DNA of 43,114 bases from a virus: positions 1 to 43,114 of IMG/VR virus record IMGVR_UViG_3300025116_000091. One strand, written 5' to 3'. The position numbers and the translations under genes are program-made. The notes under the pieces were generated by a model that was given only the letters and a program-made list of their open reading frames with translations, ran no database searches and had not been told where the DNA came from. Shown here piece by piece: positions 1 through 42,796 of this stretch (position 1 is the first letter of the stretch; each line of letters begins with the position of its first letter).

Positions 1-402
1 ATGATCAGACTGCTCATCCTCTGCGCCGCGCTGTTTGCCGGCCACGCCCACGCCTACACCGCCCAGGAAATGCTGGAGGACTGTCGCAGCGCGGAACGCC
101 TTTACGCCGGCGAGAAAAATACCGACCCCTTCTTCGCCATCCGCAGCAACCGCTGCATTTCCTATGTCGCCGGTTTCGCCGACGGTTACGCAGTCGGCGA
201 CTTCCTTGCCGGCAAGATCGGCGTCCGCATCAACGCCTTCTGCCTGCCCAACGACGCCGATCTCTCGCTGCGCCTGGTCCGTGCCGTCGTCATCCACGTC
301 GAACGCGTACCGCCCGACACCACGGTGACCACCGCCACCCTGGTCGCCGGCGCCCTGGCCAAAGCCTTCCCCTGCCCGGAAGTGCTTGAACCGAAGAAGT
401 GA
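1..402 (+). CDS. Rap1a/Tai-like small secreted protein (host flank)
   Basis: A 133-residue protein with a cleavable signal peptide (hydrophobic residues 4-18, AHA-like cleavage near 19) and four cysteines in the mature part, expected to act in the periplasm. The pattern of a central C-I-SYVAGFADGYAVG helix followed by a short C-terminal domain ending in FPCPE is typical of the Rap1a/Tai family, named after immunity proteins of type VI secretion amidase effectors. Many members lie outside such loci, and no effector is visible here, so an immunity role is not claimed. The gene is host chromosome left of the prophage and ends 26 bases before the tRNA-Leu fragment. The window starts at its first ATG, so an earlier start cannot be excluded. 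Confidence 0.75.
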   Translation: MIRLLILCAALFAGHAHAYTAQEMLEDCRSAERLYAGEKNTDPFFAIRSNRCISYVAGFADGYAVGDFLAGKIGVRINAFCLPNDADLSLRLVRAVVIHVERVPPDTTVTTATLVAGALAKAFPCPEVLEPKK

Positions 403-427: not shown

Positions 428-468
428 GCCCCGATGGCGGAATCGGTAGACGCAGCGGATTCAAAATC
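428..468 (+). pseudogene. 5' fragment of host tRNA-Leu(CAA), cut by integration
   Basis: Acceptor 5' strand, D arm, and the 5' anticodon stem and loop of a class II tRNA-Leu with CAA anticodon. After position 468 the sequence no longer pairs: the 3' anticodon stem, variable arm, T arm and acceptor 3' strand are absent. They are found at 42654-42713. Joining 428-452 to 42654-42713 gives a normal 85-nt tRNA with encoded CCA. Confidence 0.93.
453..468 (+). repeat. attL core (16-bp direct repeat)
   Basis: CAGCGGATTCAAAATC occurs here and again at 42654-42669. Left of this copy is host tRNA; right of it is phage. The core covers the 5' anticodon stem and the anticodon loop, a common target for tyrosine recombinases. 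Confidence 0.93.
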
Positions 469-606: not shown

Positions 607-686
607 GACCACACGGGCGGTTTCGCAGGGGTGGGAACATTTTTTGGGATTTTTCCCTGAAATAAGACAACAGCATGGAGGGAAAT

Positions 687-706
687 CAATTCTTACCACC
701 CTTAGG
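687..706 (+). promoter_or_regulatory. Phage RNA polymerase promoter P1
   Basis: CAATTCTTACCACCCTTAGG, one of nine near-identical + strand sites that lie between or at the edges of genes. By analogy with the T7 CACTATAGGG core, transcription should start at G705. It drives the phage's own RNA polymerase gene. Confidence 0.8.
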
Positions 707-723
707 GTGACGAGGGTCGAAAT

Positions 724-743
724 CGATTCTTACCACCCTTAGG
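724..743 (+). promoter_or_regulatory. Phage RNA polymerase promoter P2
   Basis: CGATTCTTACCACCCTTAGG lies 37 bases after P1, with expected start at G742. Tandem P1 and P2 make the polymerase gene self-activating. Confidence 0.8.
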
Positions 744-747
744 AATC

Positions 748-836
748 CCTGAAGGGAAACCTGAAGTGAAAAACCTGAAGTCTTCAACCTGAAGATGAAT
801 AACCAATGAAGAGTAAAACCTAAGGAGTAACTGAAG
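748..836 (+). repeat. CCTGAAG/CCTAAGG short repeats upstream of the polymerase gene
   Basis: CCTGAAG at 748-754, 760-766, 774-780 and 788-794, CCTAAGG at 819-825 and a final CTGAAG directly before the ATG. The spacing is 12-14 bases. A related cluster follows promoter P9 after terL. The units resemble the CCTAAAG repeats next to T7 genome ends. Confidence 0.6.
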
Positions 837-3368
837 ATGACTACTGAGAACACTGAAGTCCTTGGCTGCGAGACTTCCCTGAACCTGATCGAGGAGCAGA
901 TTCGTCTGGAGGAAGAGACCCGTGAGCAGGGTGCCATCCGCTACCGCAAGCGCACCGAGAAGGACATCAAGCGTGGTACCGAGACTGATACTGCCTATGG
1001 CTCCCGTCTTGTCGCTGGGCTGACCCAGAAGGTTGCCCAAGGTGTCCGTGAGTTCCTTGAGGTCGCTGACTCTGGCAAGGCCGGTCGTCGCCATGCCTCG
1101 GTCAAGTACCTGCGTCTTGTCACCCCGGAGAAGGTCGCTTACCTGGGACTCAAGGTTGTCCTGAATTCCATCTCCAAGGAGCGTCGTCTGGCGAAGGCCA
1201 TGATCGAGATCGCTACCGCCATCGAGGACGAGGTGCGCTTCGCTGTCCTGCGTGAAGCCGACAAGCGGTACTTCGACAAGGTGCTGGCTGAAGGCGTGAA
1301 GAAGCGCAACAGCTACCACAACAAGAAGTATTACCTCGTCTACGCCATGAACCGGCGCGATGTCCCTTGGGAGAACTGGCCTGAGTTCGACAAGATGCGG
1401 ATTGGTGAGAAGGTGCTGGACATCATCATGCAGACGGTGGGTCTGGTCGAGAAGGTCTCCAAGTCGGAGGCCAATGGCACCACCACCATGTACCTGAAGG
1501 CCAACGCCGAGACCCTTGAGTGGATCAAGGAGCGCAACTCCATCATGGAGGTCATGTCGCACACCTGCGAACCCATGGTCGTACCGCCGAAACCATGGAC
1601 GACTCCCTTTGATGGTGGCTACCTGACTGCCAACATTGCGCCCAAGACTCTCGTCAAGACTCGCAACCGTGCCTACCTCAACCAGCTTGAGGATGTGGAC
1701 ATGCCCATCGTCTACGATGCGATCAACGCCATGCAGAACACCGCATGGGTCATCAACCGTCGTGTCCTGCGTGTCATGGAGCAACTGTGGGATTCTGGCG
1801 TCGAACTGGACATCCTTCCCCGCAAGGAGGACTACCCGTTGCCGCAATTCCCTGCCGATGGTGACACCAACCCGGCATCGAAGAAGGCATGGAAGGCTGA
1901 AGCTGCCCGGATTCACCGGAAGAACATCGAAGTTGCGTCCAAACGCTTGCACTTTGACATTAGTCTCACCACCGCAAGGAAGTTCTCCAAGTACGAGGCG
2001 ATCTACTTCCCGTACCAAGTGGACTTCCGTGGTCGCGTCTATGCCATCCCGGCATTCAACCCGCAGGGTACCGACTACATCAAGGGTCTGCTGCGCTTCC
2101 AAGAGCAGAAACCGCTGGGTGAAGAAGGCTGGAAATGGCTGGCTATCCATGGTGCCAACTGCGCTGGCGTGGACAAGGTTCCCTTCGAGGATCGTGTCGA
2201 GTGGGTACTGAACCACGAAGCCGAAATCCTCGCCTGTGCCGAAGACCCGCTGGCCTACAAGTGGTGGATGGATCAGGACAGTCCGTGGCAATTCCTCGCC
2301 TTCTGCTTCGAGTGGAAAGGTTACTGCACCTTTGGTGAGGACTACCGCTGCGGTCTCCCGGTCGCCCTTGATGGTTCCTGCTCTGGCCTCCAGCACTTCT
2401 CCGCGATGCTGCGCGATGAAGTCGGTGGTGGTGCCGTGAACCTGATCCCGGCTGACCGCCCCCAGGACATCTACCAACGTGTGGCCGACAAGGTGGTCGA
2501 GGAGTTGAAGTTCCTCGCCAAGGAAGGTACCGAGGATGACTTCGAGATGGTCACCTTGGATGACGGTACGGAGCAGCAGAAGGTCAAGCGTGGCACCCGC
2601 AACCTTGCCCGTCAGTGGCTCCAGTTCGGTGTGACCCGCAAGGTCACCAAGCGGTCAGTGATGACCCTCGCCTACGGTTCCCGTGAGTACGGCTTCCGTG
2701 ACCAACTGATGGAAGACATCATCGTCCCGGCCAAGAATGCCGGTAAGGACTTCCCGTTCGATGGCGATGGTTTCTCTGCGGCTGGCTTCATGGCGAAGCT
2801 GATCTGGAATGCCGTGCAGCAGGTTGTCGTGAAGGCTGCGGAAGCTATGGAGTGGTTGAAGTCTGCCGCTCGTCTGGTGGCCTCTGAAGGTCTCCCGGTG
2901 CGTTGGGTGACCCCGGCGGGCTTCCCCGTCCTTCAGGACTATCGTGACACCAAGTCCCGCCAGGTACAGACCTTCGTCAATGGCTCGAAGATCACCCTGT
3001 CCCTGTCGGAAGAGGTGGATGCCATCAACAAGACCGGCATGGCGAACGCGATCAGCCCGAACTTCGTCCATTCGTGTGACTCGGCACACCTCAAGGTGAC
3101 CGTCTGTCGTGCTGTGGACAAGGGCATCAAGTCCTTCGCTCTGATTCACGACTCGTTCGGCACCCTCCCGGCTGACACGCCTGACCTTTTTATGACTATC
3201 CGCGAGTCCTTCGTGGAGATGTACGGAGAGGTCGATGTGCTGGCCCGATTCGCTGATCAGATTCGTGATCAACTGACCGAGGAGAATCGAGAGAAACTCC
3301 CCGAACTCCCCAAGGTGGGTACCTTGGAACTGGAATCGATCCTCGAATCGAGGTATTGCTTCGCCTAA
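837..3368 (+). CDS. Single-subunit DNA-directed RNA polymerase (T7 gp1-like)
   Basis: An 843-residue T7-type RNA polymerase (T7: 883) that would transcribe the middle and late phage genes from the nine P-type promoters. Motif A has the catalytic Asp512 (DGSCSGLQHFS), motif B Lys605 and Tyr613 (TKRSVMTLAYGS), motif C His771-Asp772 (IHDSFGT). The protein ends in CFA, matching the FAFA foot of T7 RNAP. The promoter specificity loop (about 702-725) differs from T7, in line with the different promoter sequence. The start is placed at 837, 9 bases after AAGGAG. Unlike T7, two own-type promoters lie upstream (positive feedback) and an intrinsic terminator and attL separate the gene from the host tRNA promoter. 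Confidence 0.97.
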   Translation: MTTENTEVLGCETSLNLIEEQIRLEEETREQGAIRYRKRTEKDIKRGTETDTAYGSRLVAGLTQKVAQGVREFLEVADSGKAGRRHASVKYLRLVTPEKVAYLGLKVVLNSISKERRLAKAMIEIATAIEDEVRFAVLREADKRYFDKVLAEGVKKRNSYHNKKYYLVYAMNRRDVPWENWPEFDKMRIGEKVLDIIMQTVGLVEKVSKSEANGTTTMYLKANAETLEWIKERNSIMEVMSHTCEPMVVPPKPWTTPFDGGYLTANIAPKTLVKTRNRAYLNQLEDVDMPIVYDAINAMQNTAWVINRRVLRVMEQLWDSGVELDILPRKEDYPLPQFPADGDTNPASKKAWKAEAARIHRKNIEVASKRLHFDISLTTARKFSKYEAIYFPYQVDFRGRVYAIPAFNPQGTDYIKGLLRFQEQKPLGEEGWKWLAIHGANCAGVDKVPFEDRVEWVLNHEAEILACAEDPLAYKWWMDQDSPWQFLAFCFEWKGYCTFGEDYRCGLPVALDGSCSGLQHFSAMLRDEVGGGAVNLIPADRPQDIYQRVADKVVEELKFLAKEGTEDDFEMVTLDDGTEQQKVKRGTRNLARQWLQFGVTRKVTKRSVMTLAYGSREYGFRDQLMEDIIVPAKNAGKDFPFDGDGFSAAGFMAKLIWNAVQQVVVKAAEAMEWLKSAARLVASEGLPVRWVTPAGFPVLQDYRDTKSRQVQTFVNGSKITLSLSEEVDAINKTGMANAISPNFVHSCDSAHLKVTVCRAVDKGIKSFALIHDSFGTLPADTPDLFMTIRESFVEMYGEVDVLARFADQIRDQLTEENREKLPELPKVGTLELESILESRYCFA

Positions 3369-4341: not shown

Positions 4342-4753
4342 GTCCCGCTTCCGTCCGAAGACCGAAGACATCGGCCTCAGGCTCGGGTTTCGATCCGGGC
4401 TTGAGGAGAAGGTCGCTGATGACCTGAAGGCGCGTGGGGTGAGTTTCACCTTCGAGGAAGACAAGATTCCTTACACGGTGGAACACACCTACACGCCAGA
4501 CTTCAAGCTGCCCAACGGTATCTACATCGAGACCAAGGGCTACTTCGCTCCTTCGGACAGGAGCAAACACCTCTCAGTCAAGAAGCAGCATCCGCATCTG
4601 GATATTCGCTTCGTTTTCCAAAACCCCAACACCCGCCTCTCTTCAAGGAGCAAAACGACCTACGCCCAGTGGTGCGAGAAGCACGGCTTTCTGTACGCCA
4701 AAGGTTTCATCCCCGAAGAGTGGATCAGGGAGAAACCCAAGAAGAAACCGTGA
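4310..4753 (+). CDS. Endonuclease I, Holliday-junction resolvase (T7 gp3-like)
   Basis: About 147 residues (T7 gp3: 149). In T7 this enzyme cuts branched DNA and degrades host DNA. The catalytic set is visible: Glu in FRSGLEEKV, Asp in YTPDFKLPNG, and Glu and Lys in IYIETKG, matching T7 Glu20, Asp55, Glu65 and Lys67. The C-terminal EKHG-IPEEWI region also matches. I chose ATG 4310 because GAAGGT lies 7 bases upstream and the length fits the family; ATG 4295 is also possible. The start overlaps the SSB gene by 32 bases and the stop overlaps the next start (ATGA), so translation is coupled on both sides. Confidence 0.93.
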   Translation: MVLPVARRTSKSRFRPKTEDIGLRLGFRSGLEEKVADDLKARGVSFTFEEDKIPYTVEHTYTPDFKLPNGIYIETKGYFAPSDRSKHLSVKKQHPHLDIRFVFQNPNTRLSSRSKTTYAQWCEKHGFLYAKGFIPEEWIREKPKKKP

Positions 4754-5184
4754 TGTTCAAGAAACGACTCAAGACCACGGCCATCGTTGTCCATTGCAGT
4801 GCTACCCAGCCGAAGCAGGACATCGGTGCTGCCGAGATCGAACGCTGGCACCGTCAGCGCAAGTACCTCGCCATTGGTTACCACTACGTCATCCGTCGTG
4901 ATGGCACCGTCGAGAAAGGTCGGGATGAAACCGTGGTAGGTGCCCATGTTGAAGGCCACAACTCTACGTCTATTGGTGTGTGCATGGTTGGTGGTGTTGA
5001 TGCCAAGCTCAACCCCCAGGACAACTTCACTCCAGCCCAGTACGCATCTCTCCAGACCCTTCTGCGCGAACTGAAGACCCGCTACTCCACCGCTGAGATC
5101 AAAGGCCATCGGGATTTCCCCGGTGTTGCCAAGGCGTGTCCCTGCTTCGATGTCAAGGACTGGCTGACCAAAAACCCGCTGTAA
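4753..5184 (+). CDS. N-acetylmuramoyl-L-alanine amidase / T7 lysozyme (gp3.5-like)
   Basis: A 143-residue Zn amidase of the T7 lysozyme family (T7: 151). Expected Zn ligands are His in IVVHCSAT, His in KGHRDF and Cys in KACPCFD; the catalytic Tyr in GYHYVI and Lys in VAKACP are also present. T7 lysozyme has two jobs, cutting peptidoglycan at lysis and inhibiting T7 RNA polymerase; the second is plausible but cannot be read from sequence. No signal peptide is seen, so holin would be needed for release. Start ATG 4753 overlaps the endonuclease stop. A terminator follows at 5203-5246. Confidence 0.95.
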   Translation: MFKKRLKTTAIVVHCSATQPKQDIGAAEIERWHRQRKYLAIGYHYVIRRDGTVEKGRDETVVGAHVEGHNSTSIGVCMVGGVDAKLNPQDNFTPAQYASLQTLLRELKTRYSTAEIKGHRDFPGVAKACPCFDVKDWLTKNPL

Positions 5185-5202
5185 CCCATCCATCTGCAAC
5201 AC

Positions 5203-5246
5203 GGCCCCCATCCTGACCCGAAAGGGTTGGGCTTGGGGGTTTTTTC
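5203..5246 (+). terminator. Intrinsic terminator after the amidase gene
   Basis: An imperfect hairpin with outer stem CCCCCA/TGGGGG and inner ACCC-GAAA-GGGT, followed by a run of six T (5240-5245). It lies 19 bases after the amidase stop. Confidence 0.75.
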
Positions 5247-5267
5247 GTTCTGACAAAGGAGAACCCT

Positions 5268-5501
5268 ATGACCCCCCAAGCTCGTACCGTTCTGCGTCAC
5301 CTCGTTCAAGAAGGCTCCATCACCCCGATGGTTGCCGCTGGTATCTACAAGGTTCGCTCACTGCCGCGCCGCATCTGCGACCTGAAGGATGCCGGTATCA
5401 AGGTCGAGACCGAACTCCGCAAGGATGCCACCGGCCAGCGTTACGCCTTCTACACCCTGCCGCAAGGTGAGCGCCGCCGCTTCGCCCATCTGGCTAAGTA
5501 A
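5268..5501 (+). CDS. Small helix-turn-helix protein
   Basis: A basic 77-residue protein. Residues 5-45 read as a winged-helix unit (TVLRHLVQEGSITPMVAAGIYKV, then RRICDLKDAGIKVET), as in the HTH_39-type proteins common in phages. It probably binds DNA; the target is unknown. The start has AAAGGAG 7 bases upstream. It sits between the amidase terminator and promoter P4 and so must be read through from P3 or an unseen promoter. Confidence 0.75.
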   Translation: MTPQARTVLRHLVQEGSITPMVAAGIYKVRSLPRRICDLKDAGIKVETELRKDATGQRYAFYTLPQGERRRFAHLAK

Positions 5502-5505
5502 GTCT

Positions 5506-5525
5506 CGATTCTTACCACCCTTTGT
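5506..5525 (+). promoter_or_regulatory. Phage RNA polymerase promoter P4 (variant start region)
   Basis: CGATTCTTACCACCCTTTGT keeps the first 17 consensus bases but has TGT in place of AGG around the start, so it is probably weaker. It lies directly upstream of the primase-helicase gene. Confidence 0.65.
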
Positions 5526-5548
5526 GAAGACAACGCAAAGGAGAACCC

Positions 5549-7192
5549 ATGACTGATTCTGATTCCACGTTCATCGGCCATGAGCCTTGCCCCAAGTGCG
5601 GCTCCTCTGATGCCCTTGCCCGTTACTCAGACGGTCATGGGTTTTGTTTCGCCTGTGAGGCGCACTTCCAAGGCGACGAAGCCAAACCACGAAAAGGAGG
5701 GAAGAAGATGGCTGGAGACATTCTCTCCGTCGAAGATTACGAGGGTGAGTTCCGCACCCTGACCAAGCGAGGCATCTCCGAAGAGACTTGCAAGAAGTTC
5801 GACTACCGAGTCGGCAAGTACAAGGGGAAGGCCGTTCAGGTCGCCAACTACCGGAACGCTGATGGTGATCTGATCGCTCAGAAGATCAGGTTCCCCGACA
5901 AAGAGTTCGTGGCGAAGGGCAACATGAAGGAAGCCCCGCTGTACGGACGTAACCTCTGGAACCCGCAGAACAGTGGCAAGATGATCGTGATCACCGAGGG
6001 TGAGATCGACGCCCTGTCTGTGGCTGAAGTCCAGAAGTGCAAGTGGCCTGTCGTGTCGCTCCCGAACGGGGCACAGTCGGCCAAGAAGTGCATCGCCGCC
6101 AACATCGAGTACCTAGAATCCTTCGAGTCGGTTGTCCTCATGTTCGACATGGACGAACCCGGCCAGAAGGCAGCGAAGGAATGCGCCGAGATTTTCTCCC
6201 CCGGCAAATGCAAGATCGCTTCACTCCCCCTCAAGGATGCCAACGAGTGCCTCACCGAAGGCAAAGGCCAAGAGATCATTCAGGCCATCTGGAATGCTCG
6301 TACCTACCGTCCTGATGGGTTGGTCTCCATCGACGAGATCATGGAGGAAGCCGAGAAGCCTATCGAGTGGGGTCTGCCTTGGTGCTTCGACTTCCTGACC
6401 AATGCCACCTATGGCCGCCGCTGGGGCGAACTCTACGCCCTCGGTGCTGGTACCGGTGTGGGCAAGACCGACTTCTTCACCCAGCAGATTGCCTACGATG
6501 TCGAGACGCTGGGCCTGAACGTCGGCCTCCTGTTCCTTGAGCAGAAGCCTGTCGAGACTGCGAAGCGTGTGGCCGGGAAGCTGGCCGGAAAGCGTTTCCA
6601 TGTGCCTGACGCTGGCTGGACGCAAGAGGAACTGAAGGCTGCTCTGTCCTCGATGAAGGGCAAGGTGACCTTCTACGACAACTTCGGCTCCACCGATTGG
6701 GAAATCGTCTCGGCCAAGATTCGGTACATGGCAGTGTCCCAAGGGATCAAGGTGTTCTACCTGGATCACCTCACTGCGATGGCCGACACGGCAAACGAGA
6801 AGGAATCTCTGGAGCAACTGATGAAGGAGATGGCTGGCCTTGCCAACGAACTGGGCATCATCATCCACTTCATTTCCCATCTCAGCACCCCGGATGGGAA
6901 GCCGCATGAAGAAGGCGGTCATGTGTCGATCCGGCACTTCAAGGGGTCTCGGGCGATTGGCTTCTGGTCGTACTTCATGTTCGGCCTTGAGCGCAATCAA
7001 CAAGCCGAGGACGAGTTGGAACGTCAGACCACGACCTTCCGTATCCTGAAGGATCGCTACACGGGACAGGCAACAGGTAAGACCTTCCCGTTGTTCTACG
7101 ACGTTGCCACTGGTCGCCTCACCACTGAAGTCCCTGAGTTCTCCGACGAGACCACGGGAGGTGGTGAGTTTGTTGGGTCGAACGACTTCTGA
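5549..7192 (+). CDS. Primase-helicase (T7 gp4-like)
   Basis: A 547-residue bifunctional replication protein that would make RNA primers and unwind DNA at the fork. Zn-binding Cys14, 17, 33 and 36 form the primer-site recognition domain. The TOPRIM domain shows Glu150 (TEGEIDALS) and the Asp200/Asp202 pair (MFDMDEPG). The RecA-like helicase has Walker A GAGTGVGKT (Lys306) and Walker B VFYLDHLTAM. The acidic tail ends in NDF; the matching tail and terminal Phe of T7 gp4 bind the polymerase. Start ATG 5549 follows AAAGGAG. A second strong start inside the gene at 5708 would give a helicase-only form. Confidence 0.96.
   Translation: MTDSDSTFIGHEPCPKCGSSDALARYSDGHGFCFACEAHFQGDEAKPRKGGKKMAGDILSVEDYEGEFRTLTKRGISEETCKKFDYRVGKYKGKAVQVANYRNADGDLIAQKIRFPDKEFVAKGNMKEAPLYGRNLWNPQNSGKMIVITEGEIDALSVAEVQKCKWPVVSLPNGAQSAKKCIAANIEYLESFESVVLMFDMDEPGQKAAKECAEIFSPGKCKIASLPLKDANECLTEGKGQEIIQAIWNARTYRPDGLVSIDEIMEEAEKPIEWGLPWCFDFLTNATYGRRWGELYALGAGTGVGKTDFFTQQIAYDVETLGLNVGLLFLEQKPVETAKRVAGKLAGKRFHVPDAGWTQEELKAALSSMKGKVTFYDNFGSTDWEIVSAKIRYMAVSQGIKVFYLDHLTAMADTANEKESLEQLMKEMAGLANELGIIIHFISHLSTPDGKPHEEGGHVSIRHFKGSRAIGFWSYFMFGLERNQQAEDELERQTTTFRILKDRYTGQATGKTFPLFYDVATGRLTTEVPEFSDETTGGGEFVGSNDF
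5694..5710 (+). promoter_or_regulatory. Internal ribosome site for a short (4B-like) helicase form
   Basis: AAAAGGAGGGAAGAAG lies directly before in-frame ATG 5708 (Met54). A start here removes exactly the Zn-finger domain and gives 494 residues, as T7 gp4B does from Met64. Confidence 0.75.
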
Positions 7193-15718: not shown

Positions 15719-17242
15719 ATGCAAGAGCGGCAGACGGCAAAGTCCATCTACCAGAAACTTGAGACCTACCGCCGCCCCTACCTTGACCGTGCCCGTAAGG
15801 CTGCTGAACTGACGATCCCCTCCCTGATCCCGAAGGAAGGGAGCAACGGTAACACCCAGTTCATTACGCCTCACCAAGGCATCGGTGCGCGAGGTGTCAA
15901 TCACCTCTCAGCCAAACTACTGCTGGCAATCCTGCCGCCCAACAGCCCGTTCTTCCGACTCAACGTCAGTGACCAAGCCTTGGTTGCCTTGACGAAACAG
16001 GAAGGGATGCGGGCCAAGGTGGAACAAGCCCTCGGTTCTGTCGAGCGTTCCATCATGGGCTACATCGAGTCGTCCAACATCCGGGCTTCCACGGGTGAAT
16101 CCCTGAAGCACCTGATCGTGGCTGGCAACGTCCTGTTGTTCCTGCCACCGACCGGTGGGATGCGTCTCTACCCGCTCCATTCGTATGTCGTCCGTCGTGA
16201 TCCCATCGGGAACGTCCTCGACATCGTGACCAAGGAGCAGGTGGCGATTGCCGCACTGCCGCCTGAAATCGCTTCCAAAATCAAGGGAAGTGGTGACAAG
16301 TCCCCCGAAACCTCTGTGGACATCTACACCCACATCACCCGATCCAAGAAGGGTGACCAATGGGAGTCCTATCAGGAGGTCGAAGGTGAGATCATCCGTG
16401 GCACCGAAAACACCTACCCGTTGGACAAATCCCCGTGGATTGCCCTGCGCTGGACGAAGGTGGACGGTGAGCATTACGGGCGTGGTTTCGTTGAGGAACT
16501 CCTCGGCGACCTGATCACCCTTGATGCCCTGACCCAAGCCATCGCTGAAGGCTCTGCTATTTCCGCCAAGGTGGTCTTCTTGGTGAACCCCAACGGGGTG
16601 ACCAAGGCCCATAAGTTGGCGAAAGCTGAGAACGGTGCCTTCGTTGAAGGTGACATCAACGATGTGGAAGCTCTCCAGGTACAGAAAGCCTCTGACCTCC
16701 GGGTAGCTCAAGACATGATCTCCATGGTCACCGAGCGCCTTTCGTTCGCCTTCATGCTCAACTCTGCTGTTCAACGGACGGGTGAGCGTGTGACTGCCGA
16801 AGAGATTCGGTACATGGCGTCTGAACTGGAAGACACCCTCGGCGGCATCTACTCGATCCTGTCTCAGGAGTTCCAACTCCCGCTTGTTCGCCGTCTGATG
16901 AACCAGATGGCCTCGCTGCGGATGATCCCTGATCTGCCCAAGCAAGCCCTCAACCCGACGATCACGACGGGCATGGAGGCACTTGGCCGGGGTCACGATC
17001 TGAACAAGCTGAACATCCTCATTCAACAACTAGCCCCGCTGGGCGATGCCCTCCATACCTACCTCAACGTCGGTGACTACATCACCCGCGTGGGTACCTC
17101 GCTGGGTATCGACATGGCTGGTCTGGTGCGTACTGAAGAGGAAGTCCAGCAGATGCAGCAACAGGCCCAGATGATGCAGATGGCACAGGTGGCGGCACCT
17201 CAGGCAATCAAGGCAATGGCTGACTCCCAACAGGGGCAGTGA
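15719..17242 (+). CDS. Portal / head-tail connector (T7 gp8-like)
   Basis: A 507-residue protein (T7 gp8: 536) of the podoviral head-to-tail connecting family; twelve copies should form the DNA entry vertex. Clear family segments are YRRPYLDRARKAAELTIPSLIP, NHLSAKLLLAILPPNSPFFRL, the SYVVRRDPIGNVLDIVTKEQ region, GRGFVEELLGDLITLDAL and RTGERVTAEEIRYMASELEDTLGGIYS. The C-terminus is Gln/Met-rich and probably flexible. It starts 4 bases after the polyproline gene. Confidence 0.96.
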   Translation: MQERQTAKSIYQKLETYRRPYLDRARKAAELTIPSLIPKEGSNGNTQFITPHQGIGARGVNHLSAKLLLAILPPNSPFFRLNVSDQALVALTKQEGMRAKVEQALGSVERSIMGYIESSNIRASTGESLKHLIVAGNVLLFLPPTGGMRLYPLHSYVVRRDPIGNVLDIVTKEQVAIAALPPEIASKIKGSGDKSPETSVDIYTHITRSKKGDQWESYQEVEGEIIRGTENTYPLDKSPWIALRWTKVDGEHYGRGFVEELLGDLITLDALTQAIAEGSAISAKVVFLVNPNGVTKAHKLAKAENGAFVEGDINDVEALQVQKASDLRVAQDMISMVTERLSFAFMLNSAVQRTGERVTAEEIRYMASELEDTLGGIYSILSQEFQLPLVRRLMNQMASLRMIPDLPKQALNPTITTGMEALGRGHDLNKLNILIQQLAPLGDALHTYLNVGDYITRVGTSLGIDMAGLVRTEEEVQQMQQQAQMMQMAQVAAPQAIKAMADSQQGQ

Positions 17243-36466: not shown

Positions 36467-36483
36467 TATCCTTACTTCTCTGT

Positions 36484-36652
36484 GTTTCCCTATCAATCGT
36501 TTTCCCTCTGGTTTTCCCTGCCGTTTTCCCTCTGGTTTTCCCTGCCGTTTTCCCTTTGCCTCTGCTACCTGGGCGCAATACACATTAGTTTCCCTCTCGT
36601 TTCCCTCTCGTTTCCCTCTGGTTTCCCTATCGCCTAACCTATTGATTTCCCT
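36484..36652 (+). repeat. TTTCCCT repeat array (11 copies)
   Basis: Eleven TTTCCCT units. Copies 2-6 recur every 12 bases with alternating CTGG and GCCG tails; copies 7-10 recur every 11 bases with CTCG or CTGG tails; a 30-base interruption lies between the two blocks. There is no gene. The array lies just left of the early promoters, where T7 carries its left-end short repeats, and probably marks the left end of the packaged genome or a replication or packaging site. Confidence 0.75.
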
Positions 36653-40973: not shown

Positions 40974-41086
40974 AGCGTTGCTGTCTCACACGGCTGTTGT
41001 GCACCTCAGGTAACAGTTGAGTGGGCACCCTTAGGGGTTCTGGGATTGACCAGCCTTTAACGCTTCAGGAACTGAGAGGTGTAACC

Positions 41087-41482
41087 ATGGAAGACCTGAA
41101 CAAAACCACCAACGCCACCATCAAGATCGACTCGGAGAAGAAGCGCAAGCTGATCCGCAAATGCCTCCGAGTGATGGAAGAGTTCAAGAAACTCGACCCG
41201 GAAATGCCGCTGCAACAGATGATCACCCTGATCGAAGTGGCACTGGCAACCGAAGAAGGAATCACCGTCTCCGATCTGGCGGTGCGCGTGGGGAACTCGC
41301 AGTCTTCTGCTTCCCGTCATGTCGCCATCCTTGGTGACTACGGGAGGAGAAACACACCAGCCCTGCAAGTAGTCAAGGCAACGGTCAATCCCATGGATCG
41401 CCGTAGCCAGACCGTGAAGCTGACCCCCAAGGGCCAGCGTGTGATCGACCAACTGGTCGAGGTGTTAGCAAAGGAGGTATGA
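41087..41482 (+). CDS. MarR-like winged-helix regulator next to the integrase
   Basis: A 131-residue protein with LQQMITLIEVALATEEGITVSDLAVRVGNSQSSASRHVAIL as helix-turn-helix and MDRRSQTVKLTPKGQRVIDQL as wing and terminal helix, the MarR arrangement. It ends one base before the integrase start and should be cotranscribed with it, so control of integration, excision or early promoters is likely. GAGAGGTGTAACC precedes ATG 41087. Confidence 0.82.
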   Translation: MEDLNKTTNATIKIDSEKKRKLIRKCLRVMEEFKKLDPEMPLQQMITLIEVALATEEGITVSDLAVRVGNSQSSASRHVAILGDYGRRNTPALQVVKATVNPMDRRSQTVKLTPKGQRVIDQLVEVLAKEV

Positions 41483-42437: not shown

Positions 42438-42522
42438 GCCCCGATGGCGGAATAGGTAGACGCACGGGATTCAAAATCCCGCGCCGAAAGGCGTTCCAGT
42501 TCGAGTCTGGATCGGGGCACCA
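42438..42522 (+). tRNA. Phage-encoded intact tRNA-Leu(CAA)
   Basis: An 85-nt class II tRNA with GCCCCGA/TCGGGGC acceptor stem, CAA anticodon in TTCAAAA, long variable arm, T loop TTCGAGT, and encoded CCA. Against the reconstructed host tRNA it differs at seven positions: one in the D loop and six that keep pairing (27-43, 28-42 and 49-65). Two changes fall in the att core (CAGCGG becomes CACGGG). It can replace the host tRNA that the prophage breaks. Confidence 0.96.
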
Positions 42523-42582
42523 AGAGTAGCAGAAGACGACATCTACACATTCTGAAAATGAGGTGCAGATGTGCAGAGAAGG

Positions 42583-42603
42583 TCAAAATTCCTCCGATTT
42601 TGA
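42583..42603 (+). repeat. Inverted repeat near attR (possible integrase arm site)
   Basis: TCAAAAT (42583-42589) and ATTTTGA (42597-42603) with 7 bases between. The half-site resembles TTCAAAATC in the core. It lies 51 bases from the core on the phage side. Confidence 0.4.
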
Positions 42604-42653
42604 GGGCCAAATCATTCGTAAGCTGTTGATTACTAAGGGAAAGCCAACGTCAA

Positions 42654-42669
42654 CAGCGGATTCAAAATC
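42654..42669 (+). repeat. attR core (16-bp direct repeat)
   Basis: CAGCGGATTCAAAATC, identical to 453-468. Left of it is phage; right of it is the 3' part of host tRNA-Leu. Confidence 0.93.
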
Positions 42670-42713
42670 CGCCGCCGAAAGGCGTGCCAGTTCGAGTCTG
42701 GCTCGGGGCACCA
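42654..42713 (+). pseudogene. 3' fragment of host tRNA-Leu(CAA)
   Basis: Anticodon arm, variable arm, T arm, acceptor 3' strand and CCA, without acceptor 5' strand and D arm. The upstream phage bases do not restore them (the acceptor partner GCCCCGA is missing), so this copy is dead in the lysogen. Confidence 0.93.
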
Positions 42714-42722
42714 GATACAAGC

Positions 42723-42762
42723 AAAAAAGCCGGAAATCCTGCTCGGATTTTCGGCTTTTTTG
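42723..42762 (+). terminator. Host terminator after the tRNA
   Basis: AAAAAAGCCG...CGGCTTTTTT, a long hairpin with A and T flanks; also usable from the minus strand for the convergent gene. Confidence 0.85.
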
Positions 42763-42796
42763 CGTCTACCGCCCGGCGGGAAAATATCTGCCGGAC

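Follow-up and report, generated by a model that had tools for sequence, protein, structure and literature searches.

tRNA-dependent lysogeny was described by Guerrero-Bustamante & Hatfull (2024; PMC10865867) in the actinobacteriophages Fionnbharth, LeBron and Gaia, where it was tested experimentally, and the replacement of a host tRNA by a phage-borne copy is already proven in mycobacterial phages (PMC10865867). These systems combine a tyrosine integrase, an attB located in a tRNA gene, a short core (8-17 bp in the published cases), no rebuilding of the interrupted gene and a phage tRNA of the same isotype; in Gaia, it is tRNA-Leu-CAA that is both broken and replaced (PMC10865867). In prophages of Sinorhizobium meliloti, an inactivated tRNA gene is likewise replaced by a phage-borne isoacceptor, and these prophages were later likened by the authors to the T7-like phage Lo5R7ANS (PMC11476347, PMC12429752). 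The T7-like cyanophages P-SSP7 and S-TIP37 also possess an integrase and an attP in a host tRNA-Leu, but this attP matches the first half of the tRNA (39-bp motif) and is able to rebuild the gene, and the accessible part of the source reports no separate tRNA for them (PMC8776855). The tRNA-Leu of the T7-like phage LUZ100 was considered by its authors to be a remnant of imprecise excision, and no stable lysogens were found (PMC10134795).

The window, by which we mean the whole 43,114-bp IMG/VR record analyzed here, contains a T7-like prophage with both host junctions. Like the actinobacteriophages, it has a tyrosine integrase, an attB in a tRNA gene, a short core, no rebuilding and a same-isotype phage tRNA, and its tRNA-Leu(CAA) is the one concerned in Gaia. 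Those systems were experimentally tested in Actinobacteria hosts, whereas the window holds a T7-like phage with a Pseudomonadota host and a 16-bp core, and was read from its sequence (PMC10865867). It differs from the S. meliloti prophages in its host and in the tRNA gene involved, and a link between anticodon and att site across a group is not given in the accessible parts of those reports (PMC11476347, PMC12429752). LUZ100 resembles the window in being T7-like and in having a MarR-int module with a tRNA-Leu beside int, but carries tRNA-Leu(UAA). We propose that the window very probably represents tRNA-replacing (tRNA-dependent) lysogeny in a temperate T7-like phage, a mechanism that is itself already known (PMC10865867).

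A temperate T7-like prophage

The prophage, about 42.2 kb long and bounded by a 16-bp direct repeat, is of the Autographiviridae type (Table 1). A single-subunit RNA polymerase, a T7-type single-stranded DNA-binding protein, an integrase and a MarR-like regulator were all found, as in a temperate member of this group. The catalytic set of the integrase (R149, K174, H235, R238, H261 and Y270) is complete and invariant in the alignment. The nearest annotated relatives of the phage are LUZ100, BB8 and YIMV22061, which are T7-like and integrase-carrying, and the nearest annotated integrase, that of LUZ100, is 44% identical. Eight intergenic copies of the motif ATTCTTACCACCC(T/A)TAGG, at window positions 686, 723, 3424, 5505, 7194, 9420, 15281 and 35933, are likely promoters for the phage RNA polymerase. 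Pyrimidine-rich 12-bp tandem repeats of the GTTTTCCCT type occupy an intergenic stretch 3' of the structural genes (36472-36640).

Table 1. Features of the prophage and its junctions (window coordinates)
Feature	Position	Strand	Evidence
Host gene, Rap1a-like protein, left chromosomal flank	1..402	+	Pfam Rap1a, 45.5 bits
Left part of host tRNA-Leu(CAA)	428..468	+	Joins 42670-42713 into a perfect tRNA; alone, no tRNA match
att core CAGCGGATTCAAAATC in attL	453..468	+	Exact 16-bp direct repeat with 42654-42669
Repeat family D2 (copies at 686 and 723; eight in the phage)	686..748	+	Putative T7-type promoter
T7-like single-subunit RNA polymerase	837..3368	+	phrog_414, E 3e-294
MarR-like regulator, immediately 5' of int	41021..41482	+	phrog_9665 transcriptional regulator; MarR_2 below Pfam cut-off
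Tyrosine integrase (int), 313 aa	41484..42425	+	Pfam PF00589, 94.5 bits
Intact phage tRNA-Leu(CAA), encoded CCA	42438..42522	+	ARAGORN; Rfam tRNA, 54.7 bits, E 4e-11
Phage arm of attP/attR, tRNA to core	42523..42653	+	Position only
att core CAGCGGATTCAAAATC in attR	42654..42669	+	Exact repeat of 453-468
Right part of host tRNA, including core	42654..42713	+	Joined-tRNA check; sub-threshold partial tRNA match
Hairpin, A/T-rich stem, 3' of host tRNA	42720..42763	+	Fold -29.7 kcal/mol, z -6.4

A host tRNA-Leu(CAA) gene split at the junctions

Joining positions 428-468 to 42670-42713 restores an intact 85-nt tRNA-Leu(CAA), recognized by ARAGORN. Taken alone, the left half gave no tRNA match at E<=1, and the right half gave only a partial match below threshold (18.3 bits), with no tRNA called. 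The flanks match members of the order Burkholderiales, and the empty site, in which a homologue of the Rap1a-like gene is directly followed by an intact tRNA-Leu(CAA), was recognized in five genomes (same order); in two of these, the tRNA differs from the reconstructed host tRNA at 1 of 85 nt. The hairpin beyond the host tRNA is probably the host terminator.

Outside the 16-bp core, the sequences at the two junctions diverge in both directions. A third match to CAGCGGATTCAAAATC, with two mismatches, lies within the phage tRNA (42463-42478), while shuffled sequences contained a mean of 0.30 matches and none of 100 shuffles reached three. No arm-type repeats were recognized around the core. The attB thus lies within a tRNA gene and is paired with a tyrosine integrase, the core is too short for tRNA rebuilding, and neither junction folds as a tRNA. 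Rebuilding integration of the P-SSP7 or P4 type would involve a long tRNA half in attP, which is absent here, as identity ends at 16 bp on both sides. In our model, the integrase would recombine attP with attB in the anticodon arm of the host tRNA-Leu(CAA), splitting the gene and rebuilding neither end, because attP and the gene have only these 16 bp in common.

The phage-borne tRNA-Leu(CAA)

ARAGORN recognized a single tRNA in the window, the tRNA-Leu(CAA) at 42438-42522, which has the same anticodon as the broken gene. A gathering-threshold Rfam scan of the whole window passed over it because of the speed filter. It begins 12 nt past the stop codon of int, in the direction of the MarR-int module, and ends 131 nt before the core. 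A promoter scan upstream of it revealed no convincing sigma-70 promoter and nothing above shuffles; the tRNA would most likely be cotranscribed with the repressor and int.

The phage and host tRNAs differ at 7 of 85 positions, of which four form two anticodon-stem pairs, two form one T-stem pair and one is in the D loop. Every change in a stem is thus compensated, and these six paired substitutions show that folding is under selection. Two genomes of host kin (G377 and G125) have a tRNA that differs by 1 nt from the host tRNA and by 8 of 85 from the phage tRNA; they carry the host base at all seven positions, so that the changes arose, most simply, on the phage side. No closer source of the phage tRNA was found, the best matches being 91% in 151 genomes of the host's family, about 80% in phages and 83% in plasmids, and its anticodon arm had no exact match in IMG/VR.

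An earlier sequence-only reading had described both host tRNA halves as dead in the lysogen and the host gene as left unrebuilt, with a separate full tRNA-Leu(CAA) supplied by the phage and the att core altered from CAGCGG to CACGGG by the anticodon-stem swaps. The results above agree with this description on each point. It had also placed the compensation in three stems; the compensation itself stands, but it involves three pairs in two stems.

The carried anticodon and the att site in related phages

A single-sequence scan of IMG/VR with the integrase returned no close relatives, and an alignment-based scan returned 67 viral loci whose integrases are related. Roughly two dozen of those examined possess an intact tRNA-Leu in the vicinity of int, before or after it and in either orientation, with the anticodon UAA, UAG or CAA. 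To compare these anticodons with the att region, the carried tRNA was masked and all five leucine anticodon loops were searched in the 620 bp after int. The leucine anticodon-loop heptamer of the carried anticodon was present in this stretch in 14 of 17 tRNA-carrying loci, LUZ100 among them, against 3 of 68 trials for the other four leucine loops (Fisher p ~1e-10, a value that is indicative only, as the 17 non-redundant representatives were hand-picked with near-copies left out). Of the three exceptions, L003 has the matching loop on the opposite strand and L008 has it past inserted genes. This anticodon link across temperate T7-like phages appears to be new in the open-access literature, and suggests that many integrating T7-like phages replace the tRNA that they break.

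Both halves of such an exchange can be followed in a LUZ100-like prophage (G004, IMGVR_UViG_2927991490_000002), which carries a tRNA-Leu(UAA) and splits another with a 9-bp core, GACTTAAAA, its attL ending with GCATGGGACTTAAAA and its attR continuing with CTTAAAATCCCC. The attP of this prophage, CAACAGACTTAAAAGGTCTTGC, is also found in LUZ100. Since G004 both splits and carries tRNA-Leu(UAA) and LUZ100 has the same attP, the tRNA-Leu of LUZ100 looks like a replacement for the gene that this phage is predicted to break and not like an excision leftover.

Not all relatives carry a tRNA. A half tRNA-Leu lies beside int, with no intact tRNA-Leu of its own there, in L011, L035, L053, L054 and L064, and also in L033, L076 and L077, and many integrase relatives have neither a carried tRNA nor a recognized half tRNA. 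In the two Pseudomonas loci (L076:4798-11266 and L077), the related integrase is located inside a tRNA Arg-His-Leu-His cluster; an intact tRNA-Leu(UAG) precedes it and a 3' half tRNA follows int. The intact gene of L076 is 5 kb upstream and its 3' half is present as a second copy after int, so this element appears to rebuild the gene canonically; to judge from the spacing, it measures about 6 kb and is not a whole phage. In the integrase tree, the window is on a long branch with no starred neighbours, and the carrier state would require at least six changes on well-supported branches; we claim no history from it, because the state of many rows is unknown and long branches join one another.

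Two other arrangements were observed near related integrases. Rhizobium phage Pasto (L007:7150) contains, near its own tRNA-Leu(UAA), a lone stretch corresponding to most of the LUZ100 tRNA-Leu anticodon arm, possibly a relic of an earlier carried tRNA or an attP; the sequence 'GCACTTAAAATGC' at this place was not counted as an attP match, as it may be a tRNA remnant. At L059:8876-8950 and L061:8852-8926, a tRNA-like gene with a UUA 'anticodon', reading the stop codon UAA, lies 78 bp after int. Because its anticodon arm looks irregular, it may be a tRNA-mimic att site and not a suppressor.

Origin and role of the carried tRNA

Four features are read from the DNA itself: the split gene, the intact copy with the same anticodon, the compensated substitutions and the recurrence of the anticodon match among relatives. 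That the phage tRNA is expressed, charged and needed in lysogeny is our inference. Imprecise excision that left a passive tRNA behind, the origin suggested by the LUZ100 authors for their tRNA-Leu (PMC10134795), would also explain a tRNA that lies beside int and attP and whose nearest counterparts are the tRNA-Leu(CAA) genes of host kin. A leftover would hardly retain compensated substitutions, which show lasting selection for folding, nor recur in divergent phages, in both orientations and on both sides of int, with an attP-matching anticodon; moreover, the tRNA is found where no half tRNA could rebuild the host gene. We therefore regard this origin as very improbable. The tRNA could instead serve lytic growth, by supplying codons or by replacing tRNAs cut by anticodon nucleases, the att match being incidental. 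It is established that phage tRNAs can counteract defences that cut tRNAs, and UUG represents about 10% of the leucine codons of the phage; the defence role is also discussed by Guerrero-Bustamante & Hatfull (PMC10865867). However, the same-anticodon link to attP extends across lineages far beyond chance, and codon supply fits poorly because UUA is very rare in phages that carry tRNA-Leu(UAA) (0-0.7% of Leu codons). As the whole explanation, a lytic function appears very improbable, although a second role of this kind beside replacement is possible. Replacement of the lost isoacceptor by the phage tRNA in the lysogen is well supported as a reading of these loci, because the broken and supplied genes have the same anticodon and this match recurs in many related phages.

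A further proposal, which would add to replacement, is that the carried tRNA has been specifically altered so that its own integrase cannot use it. The two anticodon-stem swaps are inside the 16-bp core, and if the carried tRNA recombined as a direct repeat with attP, 191 bp away, its two halves would be expected to part. In addition, 2 of 7 lineages of carried tRNA-Leu(UAA) have inner-stem pairs that were not seen in any of 51 bacterial genes (p 0.013), or 3 of 8 lineages (p 0.002) when the tRNA of a nested element is included, the bacterial counts having been made by eye with one gene per genome. The sequence-only reading had likewise expected the replacement to be a poor integrase target, an expectation weakened by the 12 bp, GGATTCAAAATC, that the phage tRNA still has in common with attP (16 for attP and attB), given that the core of a related prophage (L042/G004) is just 9 bp. 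The tRNAs carried in L028, L041, L022 and L003 retain 10-12 bp of their own attP, the trend in tRNA-Leu(UAG) is not significant (p 0.13), the CACGGG stem is native in the tRNA-Leu(CAA) of 3 of 399 Burkholderiales genomes, and one carried tRNA (L146) was cut by another integrase. Resistance of the phage tRNA to its own integrase is plausible, but specific alteration for this purpose is doubtful on this evidence.

The last case is a LUZ100-like prophage remnant (L146, IMGVR_UViG_3300014012_000008), whose carried tRNA-Leu(UAA) is split at the anticodon loop into halves 12.5 kb apart. The element between them (L146:4567-17066) encodes an integrase of the Arm-DNA-bind_3 type (4627-6018) and an NYN-domain protein, and has an intact tRNA-Leu(UAA) of its own (16871-16955). 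We read this arrangement as a nested tRNA replacement, in which the carried tRNA served a second element as attB. Since joining the halves gives a LUZ100-type tRNA, the record is unlikely to be a chimeric assembly.

Possible dependence of the lysogen on the replacement

Each of the close kin of the host (G125, G232, G350 and G377) has a single tRNA-Leu(CAA) gene and a single tRNA-Leu(UAA) gene, and, judged from these genomes, the host tRNA-Leu(CAA) gene looks single-copy. UUG can also be decoded by a tRNA-Leu(UAA) whose wobble base is modified, and leuX, the tRNA-Leu(CAA) gene of Escherichia coli, can be lost. The tRNA-Leu(UAA) of the host kin can probably read UUG too, and its presence means that loss of tRNA-Leu(CAA) may be tolerable. 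The earlier interpretation of the phage gene as a replacement is retained, given the shared anticodon and its repetition in relatives, but a need for it in survival is weakened by this probable second reader of UUG; in the window, the replacement may improve survival instead of permitting it. Where a tRNA-Leu(UAA) or tRNA-Leu(UAG) is broken, full dependence is more likely, since UUA or CUA normally has no other reader.

Discussion

Those defining features of tRNA-dependent lysogeny that a sequence can reveal are present in the window. Phage tRNA genes are usually explained by codon usage or defence. Here, the carried anticodon tracks the att site across a T7-like group, which suggests that the tRNA belongs to the integration module.

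We tentatively consider that the carried tRNA-Leu of temperate T7-like phages may be doubly selected, for decoding in the lysogen and for loss of the anticodon-stem bases recognized by the integrase, although we hold this to be rather unlikely. If it were true, the paired stem changes would be an attachment-site self-immunity device, and carried tRNAs that are still recognizable would serve other elements as integration targets, as in L146.

How widespread tRNA-dependent lysogeny is beyond the actinobacteriophages was a question raised by Guerrero-Bustamante & Hatfull (PMC10865867). Our data suggest that it is frequent among temperate T7-like phages. The anticodon link predicts which host tRNA is broken by each such phage, and offers a new reading for the tRNA of LUZ100.
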